Origin: a virus
Direction: 5' to 3' (one strand)
IMG/VR virus record: IMGVR_UViG_3300035670_009324
Location: 1 to 39,978 of that record
DNA length: 39,978 nt
The translations under genes and the position numbers were made by a program. Under the pieces are notes generated by a model. The model saw nothing but the letters and a program-made list of their open reading frames with translations. It was not told where the DNA came from and made no database searches. Below are positions 550 through 24,576 of the stretch, piece after piece; positions within the stretch are counted from its first letter, which is position 1, and every line of letters starts with the position of its first letter.

Positions 550-1797
550 ATGAAAATATTTGTTCAAATCGCGTCTTATCGTGATCCTCAACTTATCCCG
601 ACATTACAGAACATGTTGGAAAACGCCAAAAATCCTGAAAACTTAAGAGTAGGTATCGCCAATCAATTTAGTTCGAAAGATGATTTTGGTAGTTTAGAAA
701 TTTATGAAAAGGATGAAAGGTTCAGAATTATGAATATACCTTTCGAAGAATCAAAAGGTGTTTGTTGGGCTCGTAATTTAGTACAACAACTCTATGATGG
801 TGAAGAATACACACTTCAAATTGATTCACACATGAGATTTGCGCCAAATTGGGATGAGGAGATGATCACGATGATCAAACAACTTCAAGAAAAAGGTTTT
901 GAAAAACCTTTGTTGACAGGATATGTTTCATCATTTGATCCTGAAAATGACCCTCAAGGTCGTGTACAAGAACCATGGAGAATGGCCTTTGACCGATTTA
1001 TTCCCGAAGGTGCGGTATTCTTCCTACCTGAAACAATTCCAGGATGGAGAGATTTGACTGAACCAGTTCCCGCAAGATTCTATTCGGCACATTACGCATT
1101 TACTTTGGGTCAGTTTTCAACTGAGGTACAACATAATCCTGAATACTATTTCCATGGTGAAGAAATCTCCATTGCAGCAAGAGCTTACACATGGGGTTAT
1201 GACTTATTTCACCCACACAAAGTTTTGATTTGGCATGAGTACACACGAAAAGGTCGTACCAAACAATGGGATGATGATAAGACATGGGGTGAGAAAAATA
1301 CTCAATCACACCTTATCAACAGAAAATTGTTCGGAATGGATGGTTTGGAACAAGAAGGACATGATGGTCCATGGGGTTTCGGTCCTGTTAGAACTCTAAG
1401 AGATTATGAAAAATATGCAGGTCTGTTGTTTTCGAAAAGAGCTGTCCAACAATACACATTAGATAAACATTATCCACCAAACCCATACCCCTACGAAAGT
1501 GAGGAGGATTGGATGAAAAACTTTGCATCAGTATTCAAGCATTGTATTGATATCAATTATTCATCAGTACCTGAAAATGATTATGAATTTTGGGTAGTCG
1601 CATTCCATGGTTCAAATGATGAAACTCTTTTCAGAAAAGATGCAGATCGAAATGAAGTCATTAGAATCATGAATGATCCTGATGGTTATGGTAAAATTTG
1701 GAGAGAATTCCAAACTGAAACAAAACCGGCATATTGGGTTGTGTGGCCTTTCTCAACTTCAAAAGGTTGGTGTGAAAGAATTACTGGAAATTTGTAA
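550..1797 (+). CDS. Glycosyltransferase, GlcNAc-transferase-like (GT-A fold)
   Basis: A 415-aa protein resembling the glycosyltransferase (GlcNAc) family PF11397, related to Skp1 GlcNAc-transferases. The N-terminus MKIFVQIASYRDPQL is the first Rossmann-like strand and nucleotide-binding turn. Residues 90-97 (QIDSHMRF) hold the D-x-H that replaces the DxD metal-binding motif in this family. Residues around 199-220 (FHGEEISIAARAYTWGYDL) match the acidic acceptor/catalytic region. No signal peptide or membrane segment is seen, so it should act in the infected-cell cytoplasm. It is the first of six nearly gapless genes and follows a LamG fibre gene. Likely substrates are virion proteins or cell-surface glycans, not DNA, because it does not look like the T4 DNA glucosyltransferases. 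The fold is well supported; the sugar and acceptor are unknown. Confidence 0.75.
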   Translation: MKIFVQIASYRDPQLIPTLQNMLENAKNPENLRVGIANQFSSKDDFGSLEIYEKDERFRIMNIPFEESKGVCWARNLVQQLYDGEEYTLQIDSHMRFAPNWDEEMITMIKQLQEKGFEKPLLTGYVSSFDPENDPQGRVQEPWRMAFDRFIPEGAVFFLPETIPGWRDLTEPVPARFYSAHYAFTLGQFSTEVQHNPEYYFHGEEISIAARAYTWGYDLFHPHKVLIWHEYTRKGRTKQWDDDKTWGEKNTQSHLINRKLFGMDGLEQEGHDGPWGFGPVRTLRDYEKYAGLLFSKRAVQQYTLDKHYPPNPYPYESEEDWMKNFASVFKHCIDINYSSVPENDYEFWVVAFHGSNDETLFRKDADRNEVIRIMNDPDGYGKIWREFQTETKPAYWVVWPFSTSKGWCERITGNL

Positions 1798-1799
1798 AA

Positions 1800-3083
1800 A
1801 TGACAAAAAAACCGTTACTAATTCATATTCCAAAAACGGGTGGAGTTTCAATTCAGAAAACAAAATTAGTTGAGAATGAAGATTGGGTTGGACATAAACG
1901 AGCTGTTGAAGTGCAAAATTTATCAAATTATTTTTCATTCGCGTTTGTTCGGAATCCTTATGAAAAAGTTTTGAGTAGTTATTTTTACTGGATTTCAAAA
2001 AAATCTGAAAGATTTATCAAATTTTATCAAAAATATCCCACTTTTCGTGAATTTGTTTTAGATTATAAAAATAGCACAAAATTAGAAAAACATCATTTTG
2101 ACAAAACTTGTTGGGATTATATTACTGACGAAACGGGTGATATTATTGTAGATTTTGTTGGGAGATTCGAGAACTTGAATGACGATTTTATACAACTTCA
2201 AAAAATAGTTGGGATTGATGATGAGAACATAAAAAACCTTGAATGGTTCAACAAGTCCGATCACTTAGATTGGAGAAATTATTACGATGATGAAATTGCT
2301 AAAATAGTTTATGAAAACTGGGAAAAGGATTTTATTAACTTAAATTACGATAAAAACTCTTATAAAAAACCAAAAATGGAAAAAATTGCACTGATGACTG
2401 TTCTATTTGATTTCCCTGATCATTACGAACCATCTTTTTACAAAAATGCCCTAAACTATTTCAATAAAGAAGATATTCATGTTGTTCGTCATACTCAATT
2501 AATAAACCCAATGAGTTCTTATTATGATAAGTTGTTTTTTTATAAAACTGTCAAATTGTTGGAATACGTAGAAAAAAATATATTAGGGAAGTATGAATAT
2601 ATTCTTTTTTTAGATGGTACAGATACTAACTTTATCAAATCCCCTGAAAAGGTCATTGAAAAATTCCTGAAATTAAATTGTAGCATTGTAATGGGTGCTG
2701 AAATGGGTCTTTGGCCCCCAACTAATTATACTCACCTATATGACAAAAAGAGAGTGATTAGTGAGAGTAAGTATTTGAATTCCGGAACTTATTTTGGTCA
2801 TACAGATAAGATTGTATACCACCTGAGAGATATCATTGAAAAAGAATATCAGACTGGTATCGATGATCAGGGTCGTTGGACAATTCAATATTTATTGAAT
2901 GATGATATTATAATTGACCAAGAAAAAGATTTTTTCTTTAGTACATATAATACAAGCAAGTATGTTCAGATTGAAAATAACTCGGTTGAATTGATTGATT
3001 CAGATGCGTTTATCATTCACGACAACGGACCTCATAATGATGACACAATTAAATTGACACAATTCCTCAATGAAAACAATTAG
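1800..3083 (+). CDS. Two-domain sulfotransferase / glycosyltransferase fusion
   Basis: A 427-aa protein with two recognisable halves. Residues 1-185 resemble the sulfotransferase-2 family: HIPKTGG (9-15) is the 5'-phosphosulfate-binding loop for PAPS, FAFVRNPYEKVLSSYFYW (47-64) is the 3'-phosphate-binding segment, and FVGRFENLNDDF (119-130) is the typical downstream motif. After a short lysine-rich linker (about 185-195), residues 196-427 resemble a GT-A glycosyltransferase of the procollagen/PLOD type, with YILFLDGTDTNF (267-278, DxD-like), a WPP segment, KYLNSGTYFG and DDQGRW. It starts 2 bases after the upstream stop and overlaps the next gene by 14 bases, so translation is probably coupled. 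It could add a sugar and sulfate it, or serve two steps of one pathway. The domain calls are good; the joint function is inference. Confidence 0.7.
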   Translation: MTKKPLLIHIPKTGGVSIQKTKLVENEDWVGHKRAVEVQNLSNYFSFAFVRNPYEKVLSSYFYWISKKSERFIKFYQKYPTFREFVLDYKNSTKLEKHHFDKTCWDYITDETGDIIVDFVGRFENLNDDFIQLQKIVGIDDENIKNLEWFNKSDHLDWRNYYDDEIAKIVYENWEKDFINLNYDKNSYKKPKMEKIALMTVLFDFPDHYEPSFYKNALNYFNKEDIHVVRHTQLINPMSSYYDKLFFYKTVKLLEYVEKNILGKYEYILFLDGTDTNFIKSPEKVIEKFLKLNCSIVMGAEMGLWPPTNYTHLYDKKRVISESKYLNSGTYFGHTDKIVYHLRDIIEKEYQTGIDDQGRWTIQYLLNDDIIIDQEKDFFFSTYNTSKYVQIENNSVELIDSDAFIIHDNGPHNDDTIKLTQFLNENN

Positions 3084-4050
3084 AATCAGTCGACAAGGAT
3101 TTCCTAATGAAAGTATGCACAGTTGGCTGCGTTTCTTTATTTTCACATTGTCAAAAAAATATAATGTCATAGTAGACGCTGAAAATCCTGATTTGATTAT
3201 TCATAGTAATTTGTATTATGATGGAAATAAATTGGACACTCAACTTGGTAGAAAACCAGTTCAATATGATAGAAATGATCCCAACAAAAAATTTTTATTC
3301 GTTTCAGGTGAAGTCTCTGATTTTGAATCAACAATAAAGAGAGATAATCATTGGGCAATTGGATATCAAAAATTAAATCATGAAAGATATTTGAGACAAC
3401 CATCAGGTATGATGGATTTATGGACATTATATGATGAGTCAAGATTAGTTGATTCTCCTTTGAATTGGTTAACAGAAAAGAGAAATTTTGATAAAATATC
3501 AAAAAGAAATACTGGATTTTGTTCAATTACTCAAGCATCTCATAATGATACCCGAGAAAGAGTTTTTAATAAACTATCTGAATACAAAACAGTTAGTTCT
3601 TCAGGTCCATGGAAGCAAAATTTATTTGGTGATGATACTTTAGATAGACATCGTTGGATCAATTCAATCTATAGTGGTAGAATGGACGGATTAGGGTACA
3701 GAGAAAAAATCGAATTTTTTCAAAAATACAAATTCAACATATCCATACATTTTACAGATACCCCCCACATTTTACAAGAAAAAATTTTTCACGCGTATTT
3801 TAGTGGTTCTATTCCAATCTTTTATGGTAATAAATTTATTTTGGAAGAAGGGTTCAATCCAAACACCTTTATCAACTTACACGACTATCCATATCTTGAT
3901 GAGTTTTTGGATTTAGTAAAAAGAATTGATTCAGATGAAAGTTTGTATAGATCCTATATAGAAGAACCAATTTATGTAGACAACACACCTCCTGAGTACA
4001 TTTCGTTTGATTACACTTTAGATTTTTTAGAAAGAATAATTGAGTCATGA
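3070..4050 (+). CDS. Fucosyltransferase-like glycosyltransferase (GT10 type)
   Basis: A 326-aa protein. Residues 218-273 carry the alpha-1,3-fucosyltransferase (GT10) signature: a FNISIHFTD strand, ILQEKIFHAYFSGSIPIFYG (family form TEKlw-al-aGsvPvyyG) and then NTFINLHDY. The N-terminal 200 residues look like the less conserved acceptor-binding half. GT10 enzymes move fucose from GDP-fucose to GlcNAc-type acceptors, which would fit the GlcNAc-transferase-like enzyme two genes upstream. The usual glutamate of the FENS segment is not obvious here (HFTD instead), so donor specificity is uncertain. The start overlaps the previous gene by 14 bases and the stop overlaps the next start (ATGA), so it is part of a translationally coupled operon. 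Confidence 0.7.
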   Translation: MKTIRISRQGFPNESMHSWLRFFIFTLSKKYNVIVDAENPDLIIHSNLYYDGNKLDTQLGRKPVQYDRNDPNKKFLFVSGEVSDFESTIKRDNHWAIGYQKLNHERYLRQPSGMMDLWTLYDESRLVDSPLNWLTEKRNFDKISKRNTGFCSITQASHNDTRERVFNKLSEYKTVSSSGPWKQNLFGDDTLDRHRWINSIYSGRMDGLGYREKIEFFQKYKFNISIHFTDTPHILQEKIFHAYFSGSIPIFYGNKFILEEGFNPNTFINLHDYPYLDEFLDLVKRIDSDESLYRSYIEEPIYVDNTPPEYISFDYTLDFLERIIES

Positions 4051-4757
4051 GTTACTGTTTCTGTACAATTGCTGTGGGTGAGAAATACTTCAATCAAAGT
4101 ATGGAGTTTGCTCGAAAACTTAACAAATTTTCCGAATCTCACCATTATGTAGTTGTTACAGACCAACCACAAGTAGATATAGATAACGTTACATTCTATA
4201 CAATAGACCCTTCAACCACTTTATTTATATCGGGATTTTTCAACTACAACTTAAAACACCTTCCAATAAGAAAATCAAAAGAAATGGGTTTTGATTTTAT
4301 TTTTTTTGTTGATGCCGATTGGAGGTTACTAGATTCTTATTCCGATCAAAATATTTTAGATCTAATTACAAATATGGAAAACAATGATATCGATTATATT
4401 TTCGAAAGACCACATTTGATAGGTAGAGGAAAACATGATGGTGCGAATTGTTTTTGGAGACACAAAGTTTCATTCTATAATTTACTCGACACTCAAATTT
4501 ACGATGAGGGTCATGTTGCAAATGAACAATTTTTAGGATTTAAAAATAACGAAAAATTAGGTATATTTTTATCTGAATGGGAGAAATTGGAAGACATGTC
4601 AACAAAATCAAATTTATGGGCCTTTGCTGAGGGTGTTGAAATTGGAATGTCATCTTGTATTGCTAAGATGAAATTCGACTTTAGTAATTGGCAACATTAT
4701 GTTAGAAATATTTTTTCATTCACCACGGTAGACGGAAGGGTCTATAACAAATTTTAA
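4047..4757 (+). CDS. Putative small glycosyltransferase (GT-A fold)
   Basis: A 236-aa protein. The N-terminus SYCFCTIAVGEKYFNQSMEF looks like the first strand and helix of GT6/GT8-type transferases. FIFFVDADWRLL (about 84-95) gives a DAD triplet in the place of the metal-binding DxD. Further on there is a GRGKHDGANCFWRH segment and a helix with a conserved-looking NEQFLGF. No membrane segment is present. The ATG overlaps the upstream TGA by ATGA and the next gene starts 4 bases after its stop. The exact GT family, sugar and acceptor cannot be told from motifs alone. Confidence 0.55.
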   Translation: MSYCFCTIAVGEKYFNQSMEFARKLNKFSESHHYVVVTDQPQVDIDNVTFYTIDPSTTLFISGFFNYNLKHLPIRKSKEMGFDFIFFVDADWRLLDSYSDQNILDLITNMENNDIDYIFERPHLIGRGKHDGANCFWRHKVSFYNLLDTQIYDEGHVANEQFLGFKNNEKLGIFLSEWEKLEDMSTKSNLWAFAEGVEIGMSSCIAKMKFDFSNWQHYVRNIFSFTTVDGRVYNKF

Positions 4758-4761
4758 TTTT

Positions 4762-5388
4762 ATGAATATAACAGAAAACATTACAAAATTTACTGACTTA
4801 GATAGAAATGACAGTTTGTCTTCTTTCATGGGTCACTCGGCACAACAAAGTCATAATGTATATCAAGTTTTTTATGACTTTCTAAATGAAACAAAACCAA
4901 AACGAATTTTAGAAATTGGTACTGCTTTGGGTGGTTTTACAAGTTTCCTTAAGATTGTTATTGATAGTCTAAATTTGGATACACAAATTTTATCCTATGA
5001 TATTTCAGCCCGTCCTTGGTATACCGACATGATAAATAATGGGATTGACGTTAGAGTGGAGAATATCTTCAGTGATAATTTTGAAAGTGTAAAACAGGAA
5101 GTCATTGATTTTATTAAGTCTGAAGGACGTACAATTGTATTGTGTGATGGTGGTTGGAAAATTGGTGAGTTTAATTTACTCTCCAAATATATCAAGGAGG
5201 GTGATTTTATTTTAGCACACGATTACGCTTACGACAAAGTAACATACGAGTCTGAAATAAAAAATAAAATTTGGAACTGGTGTGAAATTACGGAAAGCGA
5301 CATTCAAGATGCTGTTTTCTTAAATAATTTGAAATCCTATCAGGAAGATAAATTTTCCAAAGCAGTTTGGGTTTGTAAATACAAGTAA
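4762..5388 (+). CDS. Class I SAM-methyltransferase-like protein (cephalosporin hydroxylase-like)
   Basis: A 208-aa Rossmann-fold protein. Motif I is RILEIGTALGGFT (48-60), the SAM-binding glycine loop. Residues 76-83 (ILSYDISA) give the acidic residue at the end of strand 2, and TIVLCDGGWKIGEFNLL (124-140) followed by FILAHDYAYD (149-158) resembles the CmcI/cephalosporin hydroxylase-type methyltransferases often found in polysaccharide loci. It may O-methylate a sugar made by the neighbouring transferases. DNA methylation is unlikely because no DPPY/NPPY motif is seen. Gaps to its neighbours are 4 and 1 bases. Confidence 0.62.
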   Translation: MNITENITKFTDLDRNDSLSSFMGHSAQQSHNVYQVFYDFLNETKPKRILEIGTALGGFTSFLKIVIDSLNLDTQILSYDISARPWYTDMINNGIDVRVENIFSDNFESVKQEVIDFIKSEGRTIVLCDGGWKIGEFNLLSKYIKEGDFILAHDYAYDKVTYESEIKNKIWNWCEITESDIQDAVFLNNLKSYQEDKFSKAVWVCKYK

Positions 5389-5389
5389 A

Positions 5390-7060
5390 ATGTCTATAAC
5401 ATTAGTTACAGGTTTGTGGGATATAAAAAGGGATACTTTGACTAAAGATTGGTCAAGACCTTTTTCACATTATTTGGAAAAATTTTCGCAACTTCTTGCG
5501 GTTGAAAACAATATGATTGTCTTTGGTGACAAAGAATTAGAAGAATTTGTTTTTCAACACAGAAATAGAGAAAACACACAATTCATTGTTAGATCTCAAG
5601 AATGGTTTAAGAATGAATTTTTTGATAAAATTCAATCAATAAGAAATGATGAAAATTGGTTGTCTCAATCCGGTTGGTTGAGGGACTCAACCCAAGCTAA
5701 ATTGGAGTTGTATAACCCTCTTGTGATGTCAAAAGTGTTTTTGCTAAATGATGCAAATATCATGGATCAATTTGATTCGGAGTTTTTGTTTTGGATTGAT
5801 GCTGGTTTAACTAACACGGTACATCCTGGTTATTTTACTCACGATAAAGTTCTACGTAAACTTCCTAAATTAATTGACAAATTTACATTTGTATGTTTTC
5901 CATATGAAGCATCTTCTGAGATTCATGGTTTTTCATTCCCAAAAATAAATCAAATCACAGGACAGAAAGTTGGGTTAGTAGGTCGTGGTGGTTTTTTTGG
6001 TGGACCCAAATCAATCATTTCAGATATCAATGGGATATATTACAATCTAATGTCCTCAACTTTAGATCAAGGTTTGATGGGTACAGAAGAATCTATTTTT
6101 TCGATAATGTTATATAAACATTCGGATATGGTGGATTACTTTGAAATTGAAGGTAACGGGTTGATGGGTAAGTTTTTTGAAGATCTGAAAAATGATACCT
6201 TGATTAGAAAAAATATTGAGACAGGAATTTCTGATAATGAGTCCTTGAACATTGCCAATACCGCATTGTATGTCATCACGTTCAATAGTCCCAAGCAGTT
6301 TGAAACTCTAATAGATTCTTTCAAGTTGTATGATAAAGATTTTCTTGAAAAACCAAAGAAATTTTTGTTGAATAATTCTTCAGATTTCTCCACTACCCAA
6401 CAATACGATGCACTTTGTGAAGAATATGGTTTTGAACACATAAAAAAAGATAATTTGGGTATTTGTGGTGGTCGTCAATTTATTGCAGAACATGCCGAAG
6501 AAAATGAATTTGATTTTTACTTATTTTTTGAGGATGACATGTTTTTCTATAACGGTAAAGATGAAACTTGTAAAAATGGATTCCACCGAAAAACAAAAAA
6601 TTTATATCAAAAAACTTTAGAATTAACCAAAAAGTACAATTATGATTTTTTGAAATACAATTACACTGAATTTTATGGTGATAATGGAGTTCAGTGGTCT
6701 TGGTATAATGTTCCACAATCTTTCCGAGAAAAAAATTGGCCAGAAAAATCTCAATTACCTGTTCATGGACAAGATCCAAACGCTCCCAGAACTAAATTCA
6801 AAAATATTAGAACTTATAAGGGAATTCCATTTATTGATGGTGAAATCTATTATTGTAATTGGCCTCAGATTGTTACAAGACATGGTAATAAAAAAATGTT
6901 CCTCACTGAAAAGTGGGCACATCCTTTCGAACAAACATGGATGAGTTATATTTTCCAAGAAACTGTGAAAGGAAAAATTAACCCAGCACTATTGTTGTTA
7001 ACACCAACTGAGCACGATAGGTTTGAATTTTACGATGGAAGACTGAGAAAAGAATCTTAA
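5390..7060 (+). CDS. HtrL/WlaTC-like protein fused to a second glycosyltransferase domain
   Basis: A 556-aa protein. Residues 1-285 match the HtrL/YibB and WlaTC family: start SITLVTGLWDI, a WSRPFSHYLEKFSQLL helix, NPLVMSKVFLL (109-119), FLFWIDAGLTN (132-142) and VGRGGFFGG (197-205). This family sits in lipopolysaccharide and capsule loci and is thought to be glycosyltransferase-like. Residues 290-556 start again with a first GT-A strand (TALYVITFNSPKQFETLI) and carry LFFEDDMFF (378-386), a DxD-like triplet, plus NLGICGGRQFIAEHA, so this is a second transferase-like domain. It is the last gene of the cassette; a TATTTATT element follows its stop. Domain identity is moderate to good; substrates are unknown. 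Confidence 0.65.
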   Translation: MSITLVTGLWDIKRDTLTKDWSRPFSHYLEKFSQLLAVENNMIVFGDKELEEFVFQHRNRENTQFIVRSQEWFKNEFFDKIQSIRNDENWLSQSGWLRDSTQAKLELYNPLVMSKVFLLNDANIMDQFDSEFLFWIDAGLTNTVHPGYFTHDKVLRKLPKLIDKFTFVCFPYEASSEIHGFSFPKINQITGQKVGLVGRGGFFGGPKSIISDINGIYYNLMSSTLDQGLMGTEESIFSIMLYKHSDMVDYFEIEGNGLMGKFFEDLKNDTLIRKNIETGISDNESLNIANTALYVITFNSPKQFETLIDSFKLYDKDFLEKPKKFLLNNSSDFSTTQQYDALCEEYGFEHIKKDNLGICGGRQFIAEHAEENEFDFYLFFEDDMFFYNGKDETCKNGFHRKTKNLYQKTLELTKKYNYDFLKYNYTEFYGDNGVQWSWYNVPQSFREKNWPEKSQLPVHGQDPNAPRTKFKNIRTYKGIPFIDGEIYYCNWPQIVTRHGNKKMFLTEKWAHPFEQTWMSYIFQETVKGKINPALLLLTPTEHDRFEFYDGRLRKES

Positions 7061-7521: not shown

Positions 7522-7536
7522 AATGAGTAAGACAAA

Positions 7537-7551
7537 TTTCACATAGTGAAA
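7537..7551 (+). promoter_or_regulatory. Small stem-loop in the polymerase leader
   Basis: TTTCAC (7537-7542), loop ATA, GTGAAA (7546-7551), 31 bases upstream of the polymerase ATG. T4 gp43 represses its own translation by binding a leader hairpin; this hairpin is in a comparable place, but its loop is 3 bases, much shorter than the T4 operator loop. Only weak support for an operator. Confidence 0.25.
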
Positions 7552-7582
7552 GAAAATGTGTCACTCGGTAAAATTATAAATT

Positions 7583-10426
7583 ATGACATCAACAGAAGAC
7601 ATTAGGTCGTTTTTGGAGGGTAATGACCCCGAAGAGTTTATAGTCTCAATTGAATTTGACTATGTAACGGACTCCATTTATAAAATTAAGGAAATACCTG
7701 GTAAGGGTAAGGCGATTGTAAAAGATCATTTCATTCCATTTGCTTGGGTAGGAGACCTCAGAGGATTGAATTTTTATCAAGGATCAAAGGCACTTCAAAA
7801 AGAAGCAATGTCAAAATACAAGATCGTAATTGACAAATTAGAGACACACGGTAATGAACGATTGGAGAAGGGTTTATCTTTTATGGTAAAATCCTTGGCG
7901 GGATATCGTGCTTTGACTCAGTTTTTCCGTGACGGTGGGATTGACCCGTGGGGTGAAAAGGTTAGAGAATTATTCCTTATGTTACCACCCGTAGAACAAT
8001 ATTTGATTCAAAAAGAAAAACGACTTTTCAAAGGTTATGAAGAATACAACGATATAACTCGATTTGTATTTGACTTGGAAACCACGTCGTTGGAGCCAAA
8101 AGATGGTCGTATCTTCATGATTGGAATGAAAACAAACAAAGGTTTTCACGAAGTTATTGAATGTGATACTGAGGAGAAAGAAAGACTTGGATTGATCAAG
8201 TTCTTTGATACTATCAACGATCTAAAACCATCCATTATTGGTGGTTACAACTCATTCAACTTCGACTGGTACTGGATTTTTGAAAGATGTAAAGCACTTG
8301 GATTGGATGTAAAAAAGATATGTAAGTCACTTAACCCTCAGAGAACCATTACTCAGAAGGAACAAATGTTGAAGTTAGCTAACGAGGTAGAAAAGTACCC
8401 ACAGGTTTCTATTTGGGGTTATAATATCATTGATATCCTTCACTCAGTTAGACGTGCTCAGGCAATCAACTCCAACATCAAGAGTGCTGGTTTGAAGTAC
8501 ATTACTCAATATCTTCAAATTGAAGATGAGGACCGTGTGTATATTGACCACAGTGAAATCGGTTCTATGTATTCGAAAAAAGAAGATTATTGGTTGAATG
8601 TAAAAAATGGTAAATATAAAAAGGCCAATGATCCAAAGTTCAAAGATTTGGATAAAAGATTTCCCGATGTCTATAAGTTAGTTACTGGTGACAAATTGGT
8701 TGAACAGTATCTTGATGATGACTTGGATGAAACCCTGCGTGTAGACGATGAGTTCAACCAAGGCTCTTTCCTATTGGCTTCTTTGGTACCAACAACTTAT
8801 GAGAGAGTGAGCACTATGGGTACTGCTACTTTATGGAAAATGATTATGTTGGCTTGGTCATATAAATACAAGTTGGCAATTCCTGCTAAGCAATCTAAGA
8901 CAGACTTTGTTGGTGGTTTATCTCGTTTAATCAAGGTGGGTTACTCAACTAATGTATTGAAGTTGGACTTCTCTTCACTATATCCTTCTATTCAGTTGGT
9001 TCATGATGTATTTCCTGAATGTGATGTTACAGGTGCTATGAAAGGATTACTTAAATACTTCCGAGACACACGTATTCTTTACAAACAACTTGCTGAAGAA
9101 TTTGCAGAATCAGATCCAAAAAAGTCACAGTCATACGACCGTAAACAATTACCTATCAAAATCTTCATCAACTCAATGTTCGGTGCCTTATCGGCACCTC
9201 AGGTATACCATTGGGGTGATATGTATATGGGAGAACAAATCACCTGTACTGGTCGACAATATCTCCGTCAAATGATTAGTTTCTTTATGAAACGTGGTTA
9301 TGAACCACTTGTAATGGATACTGATGGTGTAAACTTCTCGGCACCTTCAGATGTGGAAAACAGAAAGTATATCGGACGTGGATTAAACTGGAAGGTAAAA
9401 GAAGGTAAAGAGTATACAGGTGCGGCTGCAGATATTGCTGAATACAATGATATTTTCATGAGAGGTGAAATGGCACTTGATAATGATGGTGTTTGGCCTT
9501 CATGTATCAATTTGGCCCGTAAAAACTATGCTCTTATGACTGACTCAGGTAAAATCAAGTTGGTTGGAAATACAATTAAGTCGAAGAAACTACCTGGTTA
9601 CATTGAAGACTTTTTGGATAAGGGTATCAAAATGTTGCTGAAGGGTCAAGGTAAAGAATTTATCGAGTATTACTATGAATATTTGGAAACCATCTATGAT
9701 ATGCAAATTCCTTTGATAAAAATCGCACAAAGGGCTAAAGTTAAACAAAGTTTAGAAGACTACAAAATTCGTTGTACTCAAAAGACAAAAGCTGGATCTT
9801 TGATGTCTCGACAAGCTCACATGGAGTTGGCAATTCAGAATAATTTGAGTGTCAATCTTGGTGATGTTATTATGTATGTCAACAATGGTGAAAAGGCATC
9901 ACATGGTGATGTACAAAAAATTCCGGCAAAAAAATATTCGGATTTACAACGAAAAAAACATTTCGAAAAAACTGGTGAAGTTCTCCAAGACATTGAATCC
10001 TATGTACAACTAAATTGCTATCTGATTGACCAAGAGGAATTATCCAATAATCCTGATCTAAAAGGTGAATACAACGTTGCAAGAGCAATCAACACATTCA
10101 ACAAAAGGATTGAACCATTGTTGGTAGTGTTCCAAGATGAAGTAAGAAAAGATCTTATAGTTGCCGATCCTAAAGATCGTGGAATTTTCACGACCAAACA
10201 GTGTGAGTTGATCAACGGACATCCACTTGGACAAGGTGACCAAGATGATTTGGATGATGTTTTGACAATCTCAGATCAGGAATTGAAGTATTGGGGAAAA
10301 CGTGGTCTAAATCCCACTTACATGTATAATATTGCTGAACAAGGTTGGGAAAGTGCGGTTACTGAATTACCACAATTTCAAACCATCAGAGGACAAGATA
10401 TACCATCCCTGATTGATATTAACTAA
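7583..10426 (+). CDS. 43: Family B DNA polymerase with 3'-5' exonuclease (T4 gp43 type)
   Basis: A 947-aa replicative polymerase, close to T4 gp43 (898 aa). Exonuclease motifs: Exo I FVFDLETTSL (161-170, D164 and E166), Exo II GYNSFNFDWYWI (221-232), Exo III YLDDD (376-380). Polymerase motifs: A LDFSSLYPSIQL (461-472), B KQLPIKIFINSMFGALSA (521-538), C VMDTDGVNF (577-585) with both catalytic aspartates. All catalytic residues are present, so the enzyme should be active and proofreading. It would copy the phage genome with the clamp, helicase and the ssDNA-binding protein at 37369. The ATG has an A-rich upstream region and no Shine-Dalgarno. The last 60 bases overlap a convergent minus-strand gene. 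It sits among virion genes instead of next to the recombination module. Confidence 0.95.
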   Translation: MTSTEDIRSFLEGNDPEEFIVSIEFDYVTDSIYKIKEIPGKGKAIVKDHFIPFAWVGDLRGLNFYQGSKALQKEAMSKYKIVIDKLETHGNERLEKGLSFMVKSLAGYRALTQFFRDGGIDPWGEKVRELFLMLPPVEQYLIQKEKRLFKGYEEYNDITRFVFDLETTSLEPKDGRIFMIGMKTNKGFHEVIECDTEEKERLGLIKFFDTINDLKPSIIGGYNSFNFDWYWIFERCKALGLDVKKICKSLNPQRTITQKEQMLKLANEVEKYPQVSIWGYNIIDILHSVRRAQAINSNIKSAGLKYITQYLQIEDEDRVYIDHSEIGSMYSKKEDYWLNVKNGKYKKANDPKFKDLDKRFPDVYKLVTGDKLVEQYLDDDLDETLRVDDEFNQGSFLLASLVPTTYERVSTMGTATLWKMIMLAWSYKYKLAIPAKQSKTDFVGGLSRLIKVGYSTNVLKLDFSSLYPSIQLVHDVFPECDVTGAMKGLLKYFRDTRILYKQLAEEFAESDPKKSQSYDRKQLPIKIFINSMFGALSAPQVYHWGDMYMGEQITCTGRQYLRQMISFFMKRGYEPLVMDTDGVNFSAPSDVENRKYIGRGLNWKVKEGKEYTGAAADIAEYNDIFMRGEMALDNDGVWPSCINLARKNYALMTDSGKIKLVGNTIKSKKLPGYIEDFLDKGIKMLLKGQGKEFIEYYYEYLETIYDMQIPLIKIAQRAKVKQSLEDYKIRCTQKTKAGSLMSRQAHMELAIQNNLSVNLGDVIMYVNNGEKASHGDVQKIPAKKYSDLQRKKHFEKTGEVLQDIESYVQLNCYLIDQEELSNNPDLKGEYNVARAINTFNKRIEPLLVVFQDEVRKDLIVADPKDRGIFTTKQCELINGHPLGQGDQDDLDDVLTISDQELKYWGKRGLNPTYMYNIAEQGWESAVTELPQFQTIRGQDIPSLIDIN

Positions 10427-10702
10427 TTCAATACAAGCACCCTTATCTAACTGAATTTCATCCCATTCTTCATCAATTCTACCTTTGTCAGGTCTTATCA
10501 AAATTTCAGTCATCGCCTTGATTTTGATTTTGTCTGTCGTTGAAGAATTCAGAAAAATGTCACAATGAGGTACACCACGAACTACGATGGAATATTCACC
10601 GTTTGTGGTGTACTTTCTTTCAGAAACTATTGCGGATTCTGAAGTTCTAACTTTGTTTCCGTTGATTATTTTTTCAACAGGAATTGTTTTGATAATAGCC
10701 AT
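10367..10702 (-). CDS. Small hypothetical protein, probably virion-associated
   Basis: A 111-aa beta-rich protein that I do not recognise. Visible segments are an N-terminal MAIIKTIPVEKIINGNKV, a YSIVVRGVPHCDIFLN strand, KIKIKAMTEILIRPD and a C-terminal WYILSSDGLKLW. The start is 3 bases downstream of the stop of the gp13-like gene, so the two are almost certainly one transcript. Its last 20 codons plus stop overlap the DNA polymerase 3' end on the opposite strand (60 bases). The tight spacing and normal composition argue for a real gene; a neck or head-completion role is only a guess from the neighbour. Confidence 0.62.
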   Translation of the reverse strand: MAIIKTIPVEKIINGNKVRTSESAIVSERKYTTNGEYSIVVRGVPHCDIFLNSSTTDKIKIKAMTEILIRPDKGRIDEEWDEIQLDKGACIELVNINQGWYILSSDGLKLW

Positions 10703-10704
10703 TT

Positions 10705-11823
10705 TTATACTACTGTAATTGGAATAGTCATCGGTCTGAATTTCAACTGAGTGTTTAAGTTCGTTGCAATTTCAGCTTCTTTTTTCATTTGATTTTCAGG
10801 TCTGAGTCTTTCTAATCTTGCTTGTAACTCTGTAAGTAAGGTTACTTTCTCATCCTTAGATTCTGTTGCTAAAGATTGATAATCCATTTGAACTTCAGAG
10901 TCAGGTGTTTTTAAGTTACCACTAAACTTACCACGTACACGTGCTAAGGTTTCCTTACAGTATGCGGTGAACCATCTTCTTACCCAAACTTTTGAAGGTT
11001 CGTTGAGGTCAACCCAAGTAATTTCATCTAAAGGTATATCAGATGGAAGTCTTACGATATCGGGATTGTCTTGAAGACATAAGTCTCTTTCATCACCACA
11101 AACTTCATAATACCAGTACCAAACTCGACCTCTTGATAATTCAGAATCACCAAAATCAAATTTTCCACCAGGTGTATTGAAAAGCCAAACAGCCTTTTTT
11201 CCATCGGGAAGTGCTGTAACTTGATATTGTAAGTCAGGTTGAATCAAACGTCTTTTTACGTTGATATCCTGAAGACGTGACATAACATCATAAGATGAGA
11301 AGAAGAAATATCCTCCACCACCGTAACCTGATTGAGCAAATCCCCCAGGACCACCCAATCCACCTGCACCACCTAATGAACCGAATGACCATGGGTCGAA
11401 CATCATATTGTTCATTTCGGTTGGTGAATACCATAATAGTTGATTGATTTCTCTACATGCAGGAATTTCGTAAATTTGTTGGTTTGGAACCAAATCAAAA
11501 TAGTCTCTTTTTAGGACATATGGTCCCGCGTTTTGGAGACCCGCAATTTTAGAATAGGCGTATGTGTATTGAGTTTCCCAATCTAATGATCTACGAACGA
11601 GAGCATTAGCTAAAGATTCTGTGTCAAGATTCAAACCGTATAATGAAGTCCATTGTGATTCGATCAACCAATCTTGAAGGTATTGTGAATAATCCCCGAT
11701 GGATAGTTCCAAGAGGGAATCCATCATTTCGTATTCAAGTTCCACCGCTCTTAGAGGTGCACCCAATAAATTGAGAATCCTATTATATAATTTGGTTCTT
11801 TCTGGTTCTGGAATTACTGCCAT
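10705..11823 (-). CDS. 13: Neck protein, T4 gp13-like
   Basis: A 372-aa protein; T4 gp13 is 309 aa. Key features are an N-terminal helical region (YNRILNLLGAPLRAVELE), an aromatic region of the form VWYWYYEVCGDE, and WVRRWFTAYCKETLARVRGKFSG near 280-302. This last segment, followed by an SEVQMDYQSL strand and a helical ELQARLERL segment, is the typical end of gp13-type neck proteins. In T4, gp13 and gp14 close the filled head and give the platform for tail joining. Residues 148-171 form a glycine-rich insert that is probably a loop. The gp14-like, gp15-like and sheath genes follow nearby, in T4 order but on the other strand. A TATTTATA element lies 15 bases upstream of the start. Confidence 0.72.
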   Translation of the reverse strand: MAVIPEPERTKLYNRILNLLGAPLRAVELEYEMMDSLLELSIGDYSQYLQDWLIESQWTSLYGLNLDTESLANALVRRSLDWETQYTYAYSKIAGLQNAGPYVLKRDYFDLVPNQQIYEIPACREINQLLWYSPTEMNNMMFDPWSFGSLGGAGGLGGPGGFAQSGYGGGGYFFFSSYDVMSRLQDINVKRRLIQPDLQYQVTALPDGKKAVWLFNTPGGKFDFGDSELSRGRVWYWYYEVCGDERDLCLQDNPDIVRLPSDIPLDEITWVDLNEPSKVWVRRWFTAYCKETLARVRGKFSGNLKTPDSEVQMDYQSLATESKDEKVTLLTELQARLERLRPENQMKKEAEIATNLNTQLKFRPMTIPITVV

Positions 11824-11838
11824 CAGACGATATTTTCA

Positions 11839-11846
11839 TATAAATA
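11839..11846 (-). promoter_or_regulatory. TATTTATA element upstream of the gp13-like gene
   Basis: Read on the minus strand this is TATTTATA, ending 15 bases before the ATG at 11823. The same motif in the same orientation relative to the gene occurs upstream of ten other genes of the window. Confidence 0.45.
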
Positions 11847-11854
11847 TCTAAAAA

Positions 11855-13384
11855 TTAGAATTGGTACAACATGGAATCCAATGGATAGTTGTAAGTTCCG
11901 TCCTTAATCTCTGATTTTGTATTATCAAATACAACAACATCTTTTCCTCTTCTGATAAAGACCATCCAATCTGTTTTGTATTTTTTCACATTTGCAGTAC
12001 CATCAACTCGGTACATCCCATCAACCTCGGAGATGGACTCAAATGGTTTTACCTGAGCGGTATATTCCTTACCATCAACAGTTACTTTCAAGTCAATACC
12101 CATCATGTCCTCTTTACTACCTAGTTCTCCGATTCTTTTTACATTTTCAATACCAAACTTTTCGCCGAATTTTTTCTCGGCAACATCTTCTGTTTTTGAC
12201 CCCCTACCTGAGGTGGAACTTAGTATTTGAAATATTGTTTGAAAAGTTTTAGACTCAGATGAGAATATTCTGTGTTTTAGTTGGTCGATGTAGTATAGCA
12301 TTCTGTTCATCTCTTTGATCTGATCCTGTGGAGATAGATTCTCAAAGTTGATTGGATTCATATTAGCGCGTTCCAATACTTTATTTAAATCTTTCATTAG
12401 AGGACAAAATGCGCTGTAGTTGGTATTCAAGTAATTGATAATTGATCTACCAGGTTTTTCCAAATCATAAACCCCTGCAGATTCACCTCTTTTATATTCG
12501 TTTCTTTCGTACCATTTGTTTGGATACACATCTTTTAGAATCAACATAATTGTGTCTTTGTAGAGATTCAAAAGTGAGGGGTTGTTGTTGAACATTTGAC
12601 GAATTTTCGCTCTGTCTCTGTCGTTACAGGAGTTTTCTTGTCTTTGTTCAGTAAGATACTTTTTCGCGTTTTTACTTTCTTGGATGTTTTTGTTGGTAAG
12701 TCTCTTGTACTCTTCTTCGACAAAATCCCAATTCACCACCTTCCAAAAGTTTTTGATGTATTCGTCCCTTTTGTTTCTGTATTTTAGGTAATAGGCGTGT
12801 TCCCACAAATCCAATCCAAGAAGAGGATATCCTCCTTGTTTTACCACATCCATAAGTGGATTATCTTGATTGGGGGTTGTCATTATTTTGAGTGTTCCCC
12901 TTTTGGTCAGAACAAGCCATGACCACCCTGATCCAAATCTTTTCTTGGAGTAGTCCTCAAATTTCTTTTTGAAATTGTCGTATGATCCGAAGTTTGAATT
13001 TATTTTTTTCAGAATTTCACCCTTTGGTTCCATCTCGGTTGGAGATAACATTTTCCAAAAGATTGCGTGGTTGAAGGCACCACCGGCGTTGTCTCTTACA
13101 GTTTTGGAAAATCTTTCAATTGTTCTAATGATTTCCTCTAAGGATAAATCACCATAATTTTTACCTTCCAAAGCATCGTTCAACTTGGAGATATAACCTT
13201 TGTAATGTTTGTTATAGTGGATATTCATTGTCTCAGGATCAATGAACTGACGTAAGGCTGAATATCCGTAAGGTAATTTTTCTGCTCTGATTTTCTTGGC
13301 TTCGAGGAGGGTTTCCTCTTTTAGGGTTTCTCTTCTTTTGAGACGTTCTTCAAGTACTTGAATTCGTTTTTTGATATTGTCCAT
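11855..13384 (-). CDS. Mn-type superoxide dismutase fused to a possible PD-(D/E)XK-like domain
   Basis: A 509-aa fusion. Residues 1-36 are a charged, coiled-coil-like helix. Residues 38-228 are a full Fe/Mn superoxide dismutase: TMNIHYNKHYKGY (52-64), GGAFNHAIFW (101-110), GSGWSWLVL (151-159), NQDNPLMD (172-179), LDLWEHAYYLKYRNKR (191-206) and KVVNWDFVEEEY (215-226). The four metal ligands are H56, H106, D192 and H196. AGG before NH and Q173 are the Mn-type specificity residues. Residues 240-395 are helical and unknown. Residues 398-490 contain GIDLKV (D431) and YTAQVKPF (Q444, K446), resembling a D-(Q/E)xK nuclease core with flanking strands. There is no signal peptide, so it acts in the cytoplasm or is packaged. 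It lies between neck and helicase genes. The dismutase domain is certain by motifs; the nuclease-like part is tentative. Confidence 0.85.
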   Translation of the reverse strand: MDNIKKRIQVLEERLKRRETLKEETLLEAKKIRAEKLPYGYSALRQFIDPETMNIHYNKHYKGYISKLNDALEGKNYGDLSLEEIIRTIERFSKTVRDNAGGAFNHAIFWKMLSPTEMEPKGEILKKINSNFGSYDNFKKKFEDYSKKRFGSGWSWLVLTKRGTLKIMTTPNQDNPLMDVVKQGGYPLLGLDLWEHAYYLKYRNKRDEYIKNFWKVVNWDFVEEEYKRLTNKNIQESKNAKKYLTEQRQENSCNDRDRAKIRQMFNNNPSLLNLYKDTIMLILKDVYPNKWYERNEYKRGESAGVYDLEKPGRSIINYLNTNYSAFCPLMKDLNKVLERANMNPINFENLSPQDQIKEMNRMLYYIDQLKHRIFSSESKTFQTIFQILSSTSGRGSKTEDVAEKKFGEKFGIENVKRIGELGSKEDMMGIDLKVTVDGKEYTAQVKPFESISEVDGMYRVDGTANVKKYKTDWMVFIRRGKDVVVFDNTKSEIKDGTYNYPLDSMLYQF

Positions 13385-13411: not shown

Positions 13412-13419
13412 TATAAATA
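13412..13419 (-). promoter_or_regulatory. TATTTATA element upstream of the superoxide dismutase fusion
   Basis: On the minus strand the 46-base gap between the helicase stop and this gene reads GGGTATTTATAATC, with TATTTATA starting 35 bases upstream of the ATG at 13384. GGGTA and TACCC flank the segment as a weak inverted repeat. Confidence 0.45.
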
Positions 13420-13430
13420 CCCCCAACTTA

Positions 13431-15197
13431 TCATCTTCTACTGTTGATCGACTTGAGAATTTCTTCAACATAGTCACCACTTGATTCTCTGTCCCCCATA
13501 ACGGTTTCAAAAATGTCTTTTTTCTTTCTAAGAATATCGTAAATAATCCCTTCGATTGTGTTGTCGTAGATTGGGTAATAAACCAATACATTATTTTTTT
13601 GTCCGTATCTGTAAGCACGGTCCTCGGCTTGTGAATGGTCTGATGGAAGGAACGATAGGTCGTTCATCACCACCGCTTCACCAGAAGTTAAAGTGATACC
13701 CGTACCAGCGGCTTTGATGTTTCCAACAAATACTTTGATGGTATCATCATTTTGGAATTTGTCCACCGATTCCTGACGTTCTCTCTGTGTCATAGATCCA
13801 TCGAGACGAACCGCTTTTTTTCCAAAATGTTCCAATATCATCTCCAATGTTTTGGTAAAATTGGTAAAGACAATAACCTTCTTGTCCTGTTCAATGATGT
13901 TCTCACATATCTCGATTGTGGAAGATACTTTTTCTTGTGCTATACATTGTCTCACCTGGGTTAGTTTGGTGAACTGTAGGGTCAGAGAATCCGCCTCACC
14001 ACTTTTGTCGTACCAATCATAGTAGTCCCCCATAAGTTCCTCGTATTGTCTTGAACGAAGTCTCAGATATACTGGTGTGATAATCTTATCGGGTAGGTCA
14101 AGAACATTTTCTTTGAGTCTTCTAAGAACCTGTGGTTTTGTTCTGTCTCGAAGTTCCTCTAAATTGGATGCACCACTGACGTTCCATACTTTTCTTTTTC
14201 CTGCTCTGAATTGGAATCCATTACAATATCTTTTGACGTATGCCATCCAGTTCTCAGCAACGGGTGAGTTGATAAGGTTGAGGAGGTTGTAGTAATTGAT
14301 AGGACGACTTGTGATGGGGGTTCCCGTTAGTAACCACAGACGATCTACTCGTGAAGCAAAATCATTTATGAGTTTCGTTCTTTGGGCTTGTTTGTTTTGA
14401 ATGTAATGGGCCTCGTCGATAATGACCAAATCAAACTTAGAATTAAGAATAATTGACTCTTTTTTATTTTTTTCATCGTGGAAGTTTTTGATAATATCGT
14501 AGTTTATGATTACGAAGTCTCCGTCTTCCCATTTCTTTCCTTCGATAATTGATGTTGGACGATCCGTATAATTTTCGATTTCTCTTTGCCAGTTGATCTT
14601 CAAGGATGCTGGACAAATAATCAAAATCTTTTTTGATCCTGTCTCCAATGCGGCGATGATTGTTGAAGTTGTCTTACCAAGACCCATATCATCAGCGAGA
14701 ATCATCTTTTTATTTTCACACAACTTTTGGATTGCCTCCTTTTGGTGTTCCAAAGGTGGACGGTGAGAATATTTGGAATAATCAATTACAACATTCTTTA
14801 TTGTATTGTCCTTTAGTAGTGCGACTTTAGGTAACCAAAGATCTTGTATAAAATCTCTTTCAAAAAATTTCCCCCAAATATGGTATGAGGTATCCTTTTC
14901 AACCAAAAGTTTTTCGATGTAAATTTTTTCGGGTACCTGAGTGAACAATTTGTCATCAGCGATCTTTTGTGCAAAATATGGATCTAAATCCACCCACTTC
15001 TTTGCGACTTTGGGAATACTTTCGTGATAGTTGAGTATGTATTCAGATTGGGATCTCGTTGGATAAAACTTTGGATTATCGATCATTTTGGTTTTCAATC
15101 GCAAGATGTAATTGTTGGCTCCTTCATATTTTTCTAAAATATTCAAGGCCTTCCTCTCCAATACTCCGAAGGTAAATATGTTATCCTGATTTTCCAA
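13431..15197 (-). CDS. SNF2-type (SF2) DNA helicase/ATPase
   Basis: A 588-aa protein with both RecA-like domains of SNF2/SMARCAL1-type translocases. Residues: RPPLEHQKEAI (146-156, Q motif), ADDMGLGKTTST (168-179, Walker A), ILIICPASLKINW (191-203, motif Ia), VIIDEAHYIQN (258-268, Walker B), LLTGTPITSRP (289-299, motif III). In the C-terminal domain: KVIVFTNFTKTLEMI, VRLDGSMTQRERQ, AAGTGITLT (motif V) and QAEDRAYRYGQ (motif VI with arginine finger). The helicase is intact. T4 uses UvsW for related tasks (branch migration, fork reversal); this one is of the SNF2 subgroup. The start is TTG at 15197: in frame, GTA and TAG lie directly upstream and no ATG is available before residue 39. Confidence 0.9.
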   Translation of the reverse strand: MENQDNIFTFGVLERKALNILEKYEGANNYILRLKTKMIDNPKFYPTRSQSEYILNYHESIPKVAKKWVDLDPYFAQKIADDKLFTQVPEKIYIEKLLVEKDTSYHIWGKFFERDFIQDLWLPKVALLKDNTIKNVVIDYSKYSHRPPLEHQKEAIQKLCENKKMILADDMGLGKTTSTIIAALETGSKKILIICPASLKINWQREIENYTDRPTSIIEGKKWEDGDFVIINYDIIKNFHDEKNKKESIILNSKFDLVIIDEAHYIQNKQAQRTKLINDFASRVDRLWLLTGTPITSRPINYYNLLNLINSPVAENWMAYVKRYCNGFQFRAGKRKVWNVSGASNLEELRDRTKPQVLRRLKENVLDLPDKIITPVYLRLRSRQYEELMGDYYDWYDKSGEADSLTLQFTKLTQVRQCIAQEKVSSTIEICENIIEQDKKVIVFTNFTKTLEMILEHFGKKAVRLDGSMTQRERQESVDKFQNDDTIKVFVGNIKAAGTGITLTSGEAVVMNDLSFLPSDHSQAEDRAYRYGQKNNVLVYYPIYDNTIEGIIYDILRKKKDIFETVMGDRESSGDYVEEILKSINSRR

Positions 15198-21145: not shown

Positions 21146-21153
21146 TATTTATA
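21146..21153 (+). promoter_or_regulatory. TATTTATA element upstream of the tail tube gene
   Basis: GTATTTATATAG starts 46 bases upstream of the ATG at 21192, followed by an A-rich leader. The tube is a high-copy product, which fits a strong late promoter. Confidence 0.45.
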
Positions 21154-24552: not shown

Positions 24553-24559
24553 TATTTAT
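24553..24559 (+). promoter_or_regulatory. TATTTAT element upstream of the 1657-aa baseplate gene
   Basis: TATTTATA starts 24 bases upstream of the ATG at 24577; the flanks ATTC and GGAAT form an imperfect inverted repeat around it. Confidence 0.42.
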
Positions 24560-24576
24560 AGGAATAAGATAAAAGA

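Follow-up and report, generated by a model that had tools for sequence, protein, structure and literature searches.

The usual account of antioxidant genes carried by phages is that they stand alone and assist the host. Over 10 % of freshwater phage genomes contain genes for defence against reactive oxygen species (ROS), superoxide dismutases (SODs) among them, and phage-mediated ROS defence has been proposed (Kavagutti et al. 2019, PMC6802176). Published phage SODs, which include freshwater cases (PMC6802176) as well as the Pseudomonas PA5oct group and Vibrio phage 2.275.O, share with the locus described here the occurrence of a SOD in a phage. A 501-aa UniProt entry from an uncultured Caudovirales phage, A0A6J5L953, is named 'superoxide dismutase' for its SOD only, the nuclease half having gone unrecognised; its structure matches across the whole of the C-terminal domain discussed below (TMq 0.87) and it is probably the same SOD-nuclease fusion. 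Since phage SODs are published and the fusion probably stands in UniProt already, to call this locus an undescribed system, as the original prediction did, is too strong. The novelty lies in the fused gene, its nuclease family and the naturally occurring excisions of the SOD, an unusual and strongly conserved combination of ordinary parts. Neither the fusion nor its nuclease family is reported in the literature searched, which was mostly outside subscription journals. In this case over 100 distinct proteins unite the antioxidant enzyme with a nuclease that is uncharacterised, probably late and encoded next to a neck gene.

Taken half by half, the protein has described counterparts. With bacterial Mn-superoxide dismutases (6gsc, S. 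aureus SodA) it shares the full domain, the ligands, the Mn-type second sphere and about 45-50 % identity; unlike them, it carries a fused N-terminal helix and a C-terminal nuclease. The fold predicted for that nuclease and its E-D-QxK arrangement are in common with archaeal Hjc/Mrr-like resolvases and with I-Ssp6803I, however, sequence similarity to these is not significant and the phage nuclease has an extra N-terminal helical region. In T4, gp4 is a TnsA-like head-closure protein thought to trim or condition the packaged DNA end, and endonuclease VII (gp49) has a fold that differs from PD-(D/E)XK. Endonuclease VII acts chiefly in branch resolution during packaging (PMC3016281), and gp49 is portal-bound (PMC9958956). 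The likeness to gp49 and gp4 lies in the proposed late role in DNA processing or packaging; a sequence relation to either was not found.

The window, i.e. the whole stretch of DNA analysed, comprises the 39,978 nucleotides of IMG/VR virus record IMGVR_UViG_3300035670_009324. The complete SOD-nuclease gene occupies 11855..13384, the coordinates originally given for it, and lies on the minus strand, with its ATG at 13384, its stop at 11855 and a product of 509 aa; at the base composition of the window, 509 open codons would arise by chance with a probability of ~8e-16. Successive IMG/VR scans found the intact fusion on 238 uncultured phage contigs, and the 238 complete ORFs reduce to 103 distinct at 98.5 %. 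The best 80 relatives in an IMG/VR scan span the fusion fully or nearly, at 48-100 % identity. That a sequencing or assembly error might have joined two genes, a possibility raised at the outset, is ruled out by these 238 intact homologues. Pairwise identities of the SOD and nuclease domains in the aligned fusion proteins are correlated (0.84), as expected under joint inheritance. The fusion is real and old, and strong selection has maintained it in over 100 distinct relatives. Among SOD-bearing loci with complete ORFs, a single reading frame for SOD and nuclease is found everywhere except at L105 (5254-6816), where the two occupy overlapping frames, apparently through a single frameshift, probably a sequencing indel and possibly a real split.

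The protein begins with a coiled helix and linker (residues 1-34; 13283..13384, minus strand), modelled by AlphaFold2 as a helix over residues 2-30 and retained in the L154- and L136-type proteins that lack the SOD. The Mn-type SOD domain follows (residues 35-228; 12701..13282, minus strand), and then a linker and helical region (residues 229-379; 12248..12700, minus strand), helical in the models and with conserved C253, GRS 312-314, N317 and NTN 320-322. Residues 380-509 (11858..12247, minus strand) form the predicted PD-(D/E)XK-type nuclease core. The full-length AlphaFold2 model was built from an alignment of 41 sequences and has a pLDDT of 83.

Pfam recognises Sod_Fe_N (PF00081, E 4.5e-20) and Sod_Fe_C (PF02777, E 2.4e-41) in order over residues 35-224. 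The solved structure closest in sequence is the Sphingobacterium MnSOD 6gsc (E 6e-62, residues 34-228), and Foldseek places the full-protein model against MnSODs at a TMt of ~0.85. The metal ligands H56, H106, D192 and H196 are invariant in 239 of 239 aligned fusion proteins, so that the ligand loss which the original prediction had named as grounds for doubt does not occur; H60, Y64, W154, Q173, G190, L191, E195 and Y199 are invariant in the same 239 sequences. The second sphere is of Mn type, with Q173 present and a Gly-Leu pair (G190-L191) immediately before the ligand D192; this pair matches Gly159-Leu160, a determinant of the Mn-specific S. aureus SOD (PMC7264356). The median dN/dS of the SOD region is 0.036 (239 aligned sequences), and a degenerate SOD is ruled out by the invariant site together with this value of about 0.04. 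As judged from its residues, the domain seems to be a complete, Mn-type and working SOD, in line with the original description of it as complete and probably active. Nearly all of the nearest cellular SODs are from Bacteroidota and, against these, the phage SODs form one clade in the tree, which points to a probable Bacteroidota origin of the domain and weakly suggests Bacteroidota hosts.

The C-terminal half is less readily classified. Residues 230-509 gave no significant sequence match in Pfam, PHROGs, NCBIfam or PDB, and appear to constitute a new nuclease family that no Pfam or PHROG family covers. The PD-(D/E)XK superfamily is notorious for very low sequence similarity. Pfam and PDB profile searches found no profile-level similarity to a known family and reach no known nuclease; the assignment to the superfamily is therefore based on fold and motif. 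A separate model of the C-terminal domain (alignment of 74 sequences, pLDDT 89.6) matched in Foldseek against PDB the homing endonuclease I-Ssp6803I best (E 3.4e-3, probability 1.00), followed by Hjc resolvases of several archaea; the matches are weak but consistent (best E 3.4e-3, TMt 0.45). Viral matches of the same model include annotated PD(D/E)XK nucleases and phage Holliday-junction resolvases.

Across the 239 aligned sequences, G395, E399, G422, D426, D431, Q444 and K446 are invariant (minus-strand codons: E399 12188-12190, D431 12092-12094, Q444 12053-12055, K446 12047-12049). The original prediction had proposed a nuclease-like core on D431, Q444 and K446; the motif is present and unvarying, a fold of this kind is predicted, and E399, which was not part of that proposal and lies on a helix ahead of the other three, completes the usual four-residue set. 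In the predicted core, helix 379-410 bears E399, strand 432-436 follows D431 and strand 439-447 bears Q444 and K446, the order expected of a PD-(D/E)XK fold. The Hjc/Mrr motifs are (G/P)X4E, hDhhXp and hhh(E/D/Q)hK, with Q permitted for E/D in the last (PMC8805305). Compared with these, the phage protein has G395-x3-E399, I-D431-L and A-Q444-V-K446, of which II and III fit and motif I is one residue short in spacing. The median dN/dS of the nuclease region is 0.081 (239 aligned sequences), indicating purifying selection on this half as on the SOD. Since the fold scores are modest, we strongly infer, rather than take as proven, that a PD-(D/E)XK-like nuclease makes up the C-terminal half.

Related domains occur in other settings. 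A 735-kb megaphage has a distant stand-alone relative with equivalents of E399, D431, Q444 and K446, for which no close relatives were found in IMG/VR. The same four equivalents are kept by a SOD-less paralogue of 359 aa (L369 1444-2523, E 1.7e-16) in the 295-kb record G003, situated away from the neck locus. In BFVD, this C-terminal fold recurs (E 5e-18, TMq 0.76) as part of the far larger, 1113-aa protein A0A8D9CCA0 of an uncultured marine phage, another architecture of the nuclease family. A scan of bacterial genomes with one short pattern returned no homologue of the C-terminal domain, which lends weak support to its absence there.

The nuclease also exists naturally without the SOD, at 30 fetched loci (some contigs counted repeatedly) from relatives of the fusion-bearing lineages. 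One such locus, L154, is flanked by the usual helicase and neck genes, and in proteins of its type the linker EMKKIEIEKL that precedes the SOD runs directly into KSIISEGKSERCS. Compared with the SOD-bearing L264, the L154 type differs by a single in-frame deletion of 609 nt (203 codons), and the nuclease domains are 93 % identical. The tree of the nuclease has SOD-less forms emerging at two separate points within clades that bear the SOD; the SOD has been lost independently in two clades. A search with PF02777 over the whole of the 318-kb and 308-kb SOD-less records found no SOD anywhere, and metagenome 3300042483 contains both SOD-positive and SOD-less forms. With two losses, one of them a 609-nt in-frame deletion, the SOD is better regarded as a detachable module than as a scaffold which the nuclease needs. 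Since natural SOD-bearing and SOD-less forms exist that are matched but for one clean deletion, the benefit of the SOD to the phage and the value of tethering it can be tested directly.

The gene has constant neighbours on both sides. Upstream lies a SNF2/UvsW-like helicase (13431..15197, minus strand; Pfam SNF2-rel_dom 1.5e-31, PHROG 62) and downstream a neck or head-tail adaptor gene (10705..11823, minus strand; phrog_211, E 1e-8), followed by an ORF for a 111-aa protein of unknown function (10367..10702, minus strand), the last in the conserved four-gene block. The order helicase, SOD-nuclease, neck and 111-aa protein, facing the DNA polymerase, is kept in the 23 loci inspected, the exceptions being small insertions and contigs that end early. 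Homologues thus keep not only the fusion but, wherever inspected, its place, the comparison which the original prediction had proposed as a check. Among 50,697 GenBank phage records no full-length relative was found, and the annotated phage records that were found match the SOD part alone. The nearest named phages by sheath and neck are Microcystis phage Mel-JY01 and LR756508, in which a profile search for the C-terminal domain gave no match. The carriers, large T4-like phages from water, make up a widespread, uncultured lineage with no cultured members in the collections searched.

A short motif upstream of the gene suggests when it is expressed. TATTTATA, a candidate late-promoter motif, lies 28-35 nt upstream of the SOD-nuclease start codon (13412..13419, minus strand) and upstream of the neck gene (11839..11846, minus strand). 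Within 70 nt upstream of the SOD-nuclease it is found at 48 of 58 non-redundant loci, where 0.7 would be expected; the corresponding counts are 51 of 65 for the neck gene and 9 of 9 for the tail tube, as against 1 of 42 for the helicase, whose starts are less certain, and 0 of 56 for the 111-aa gene. In the window, TATTTAT stands ahead of 6 of 10 tail, neck and neighbouring genes, while the 10 genes for replication or sugar modification have it in no case (Fisher p 0.011). The candidate differs from the T4 motif TATAAATA. As judged from the motif that it has in common with virion genes, late expression of the SOD-nuclease is suggested, and synthesis of the nuclease probably coincides with that of the virion, for the enrichment of TATTTATA/TATTTAT fits a candidate late promoter. 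Additional TATTTATA sites precede virion genes at 21146-21153 and 24553-24560 of the window.

Other nucleases that might serve in packaging were also sought. Endonuclease VII, RuvC, RusA and T7 endonuclease I were not detected in three relatives of 295-318 kb, whose completeness is unproven; the T4 control was positive for endonuclease VII, and resolvases of other families could escape such a search. No convincing orthologue of T4 gp4 was found through phrog_218 in records G001-G003, the T4 control again being positive, and the SOD-nuclease itself did not match phrog_218, the gp4 head-closure family. T4 gp4 matches the TnsA-like nuclease family PF08722. One gp4-like match in G001 is by context a homing endonuclease, inside a split dUTPase-like gene, and was rejected as gp4. 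This gene (L364 238-2131, 318-kb record) is apparently split by an intein or intron that carries a 294-aa ORF resembling a homing endonuclease.

The candidate late motif, the failure to detect resolvases and the packaging role of endonuclease VII (gp49) in T4 together lead us to propose a late branch-resolving or packaging nuclease that carries an optional antioxidant SOD module, a reading in which our confidence is slightly better than even. The uncultured large T4-like phages would make a two-enzyme protein late in infection, in which the SOD domain, probably of Bacteroidota origin, would remove superoxide in the infected cell. The endonuclease would most likely cut branched DNA such as Holliday junctions and forks, so that recombining replicative DNA becomes packageable, and would do the work of endonuclease VII beside the UvsW-like helicase. 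The SOD would be an add-on module for ROS defence that has promoter, amount and possibly location in common with the DNA enzyme, and the nuclease would be independent of it, the SOD having been lost in two lineages. Branched DNA as the substrate is a guess; the neck-gene neighbourhood fits a head-completion nuclease equally well. If the proposal holds, the junction resolvase that seems to be missing from this widespread T4-like lineage may be supplied by the C-terminal family. Overlapping with it, and given nearly an even chance, is the view of the SOD as a pure passenger, an ordinary auxiliary ROS-defence enzyme whose gene fused by chance to the one beside it, with no function in the fusion beyond shared expression; our proposal leaves the importance of the tether undecided. 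Such a passenger accords with the frequency of ROS defence, SODs included, in freshwater phages (PMC6802176) and with a SOD that can be lost while the nuclease is retained, however, the fusion persists across 103 distinct proteins with only two losses found, and no separate free SOD occurs in the records searched.

Readings in which the nuclease acts elsewhere, or the SOD acts upon it, seem to us less probable. Head completion, in which the nuclease would work at the neck on the end of the packaged DNA, trimming or conditioning it, with the SOD in the virion or merely co-made, is unlikely yet a close rival: in the inspected loci the neck gene comes next downstream, a candidate promoter is common to both genes, gp4 matches a TnsA-like family, and G001-G003 have no convincing gp4. 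On the other hand, the helicase neighbour speaks for recombination as much as for the neck, the fold matches are to resolvases plus one homing nuclease, and gp4 showed no link in sequence. We consider decidedly unlikely a redox-protected DNA-processing enzyme, in which the dismutase, working close around the packaging or recombination nuclease, perhaps at the neck or in the virion, shields DNA ends from superoxide or ties the nuclease to the manganese or oxygen state; if true, phage enzymes of such a kind would be new to the literature. The protein may also, as the original prediction had it, protect packaged or entering DNA, though this is conjecture. The distribution of homing genes is as a rule sporadic. 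An enzyme directed against host or competitor (host DNA breakdown, homing, exclusion) in place of phage DNA processing, to which the homing endonuclease as best single fold match and the distant stand-alone megaphage relative might point, is accordingly hard to square with a fixed position, wide presence in the lineage and a candidate late promoter, and we judge it improbable. MnSODs form dimers or tetramers. With E195 and Y199 kept, and with I-Ssp6803I-like nucleases acting as tetramers (PMC12205087), the SOD fold could provide the nuclease with a scaffold for oligomerisation or with metal, its dismutase activity incidental, much as the original prediction had entertained. This we hold to be very improbable, for the ligands and catalytic second sphere are invariant, the dN/dS of the SOD is below that of the nuclease, and SOD-less versions keep a complete nuclease, which disfavours the SOD as a necessary scaffold.

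Two features elsewhere in the window may be mentioned. Upstream of the DNA polymerase, 550-7060 holds a series of genes that resemble glycosyltransferases, sulfotransferases and methyltransferases, named by eye from their sequences and variable among relatives. A structured RNA leader (7524-7567, plus strand) lies 9-18 nt upstream of the polymerase start and is conserved in 31 related loci; it matched no Rfam family. Its three helices have 96.9 % of cells paired, and 8 pairs show compensatory changes (45 cells versus 11.6 in shuffled alignments). T4 gp43 has an autogenous translational operator, and by analogy the leader may be one as well.
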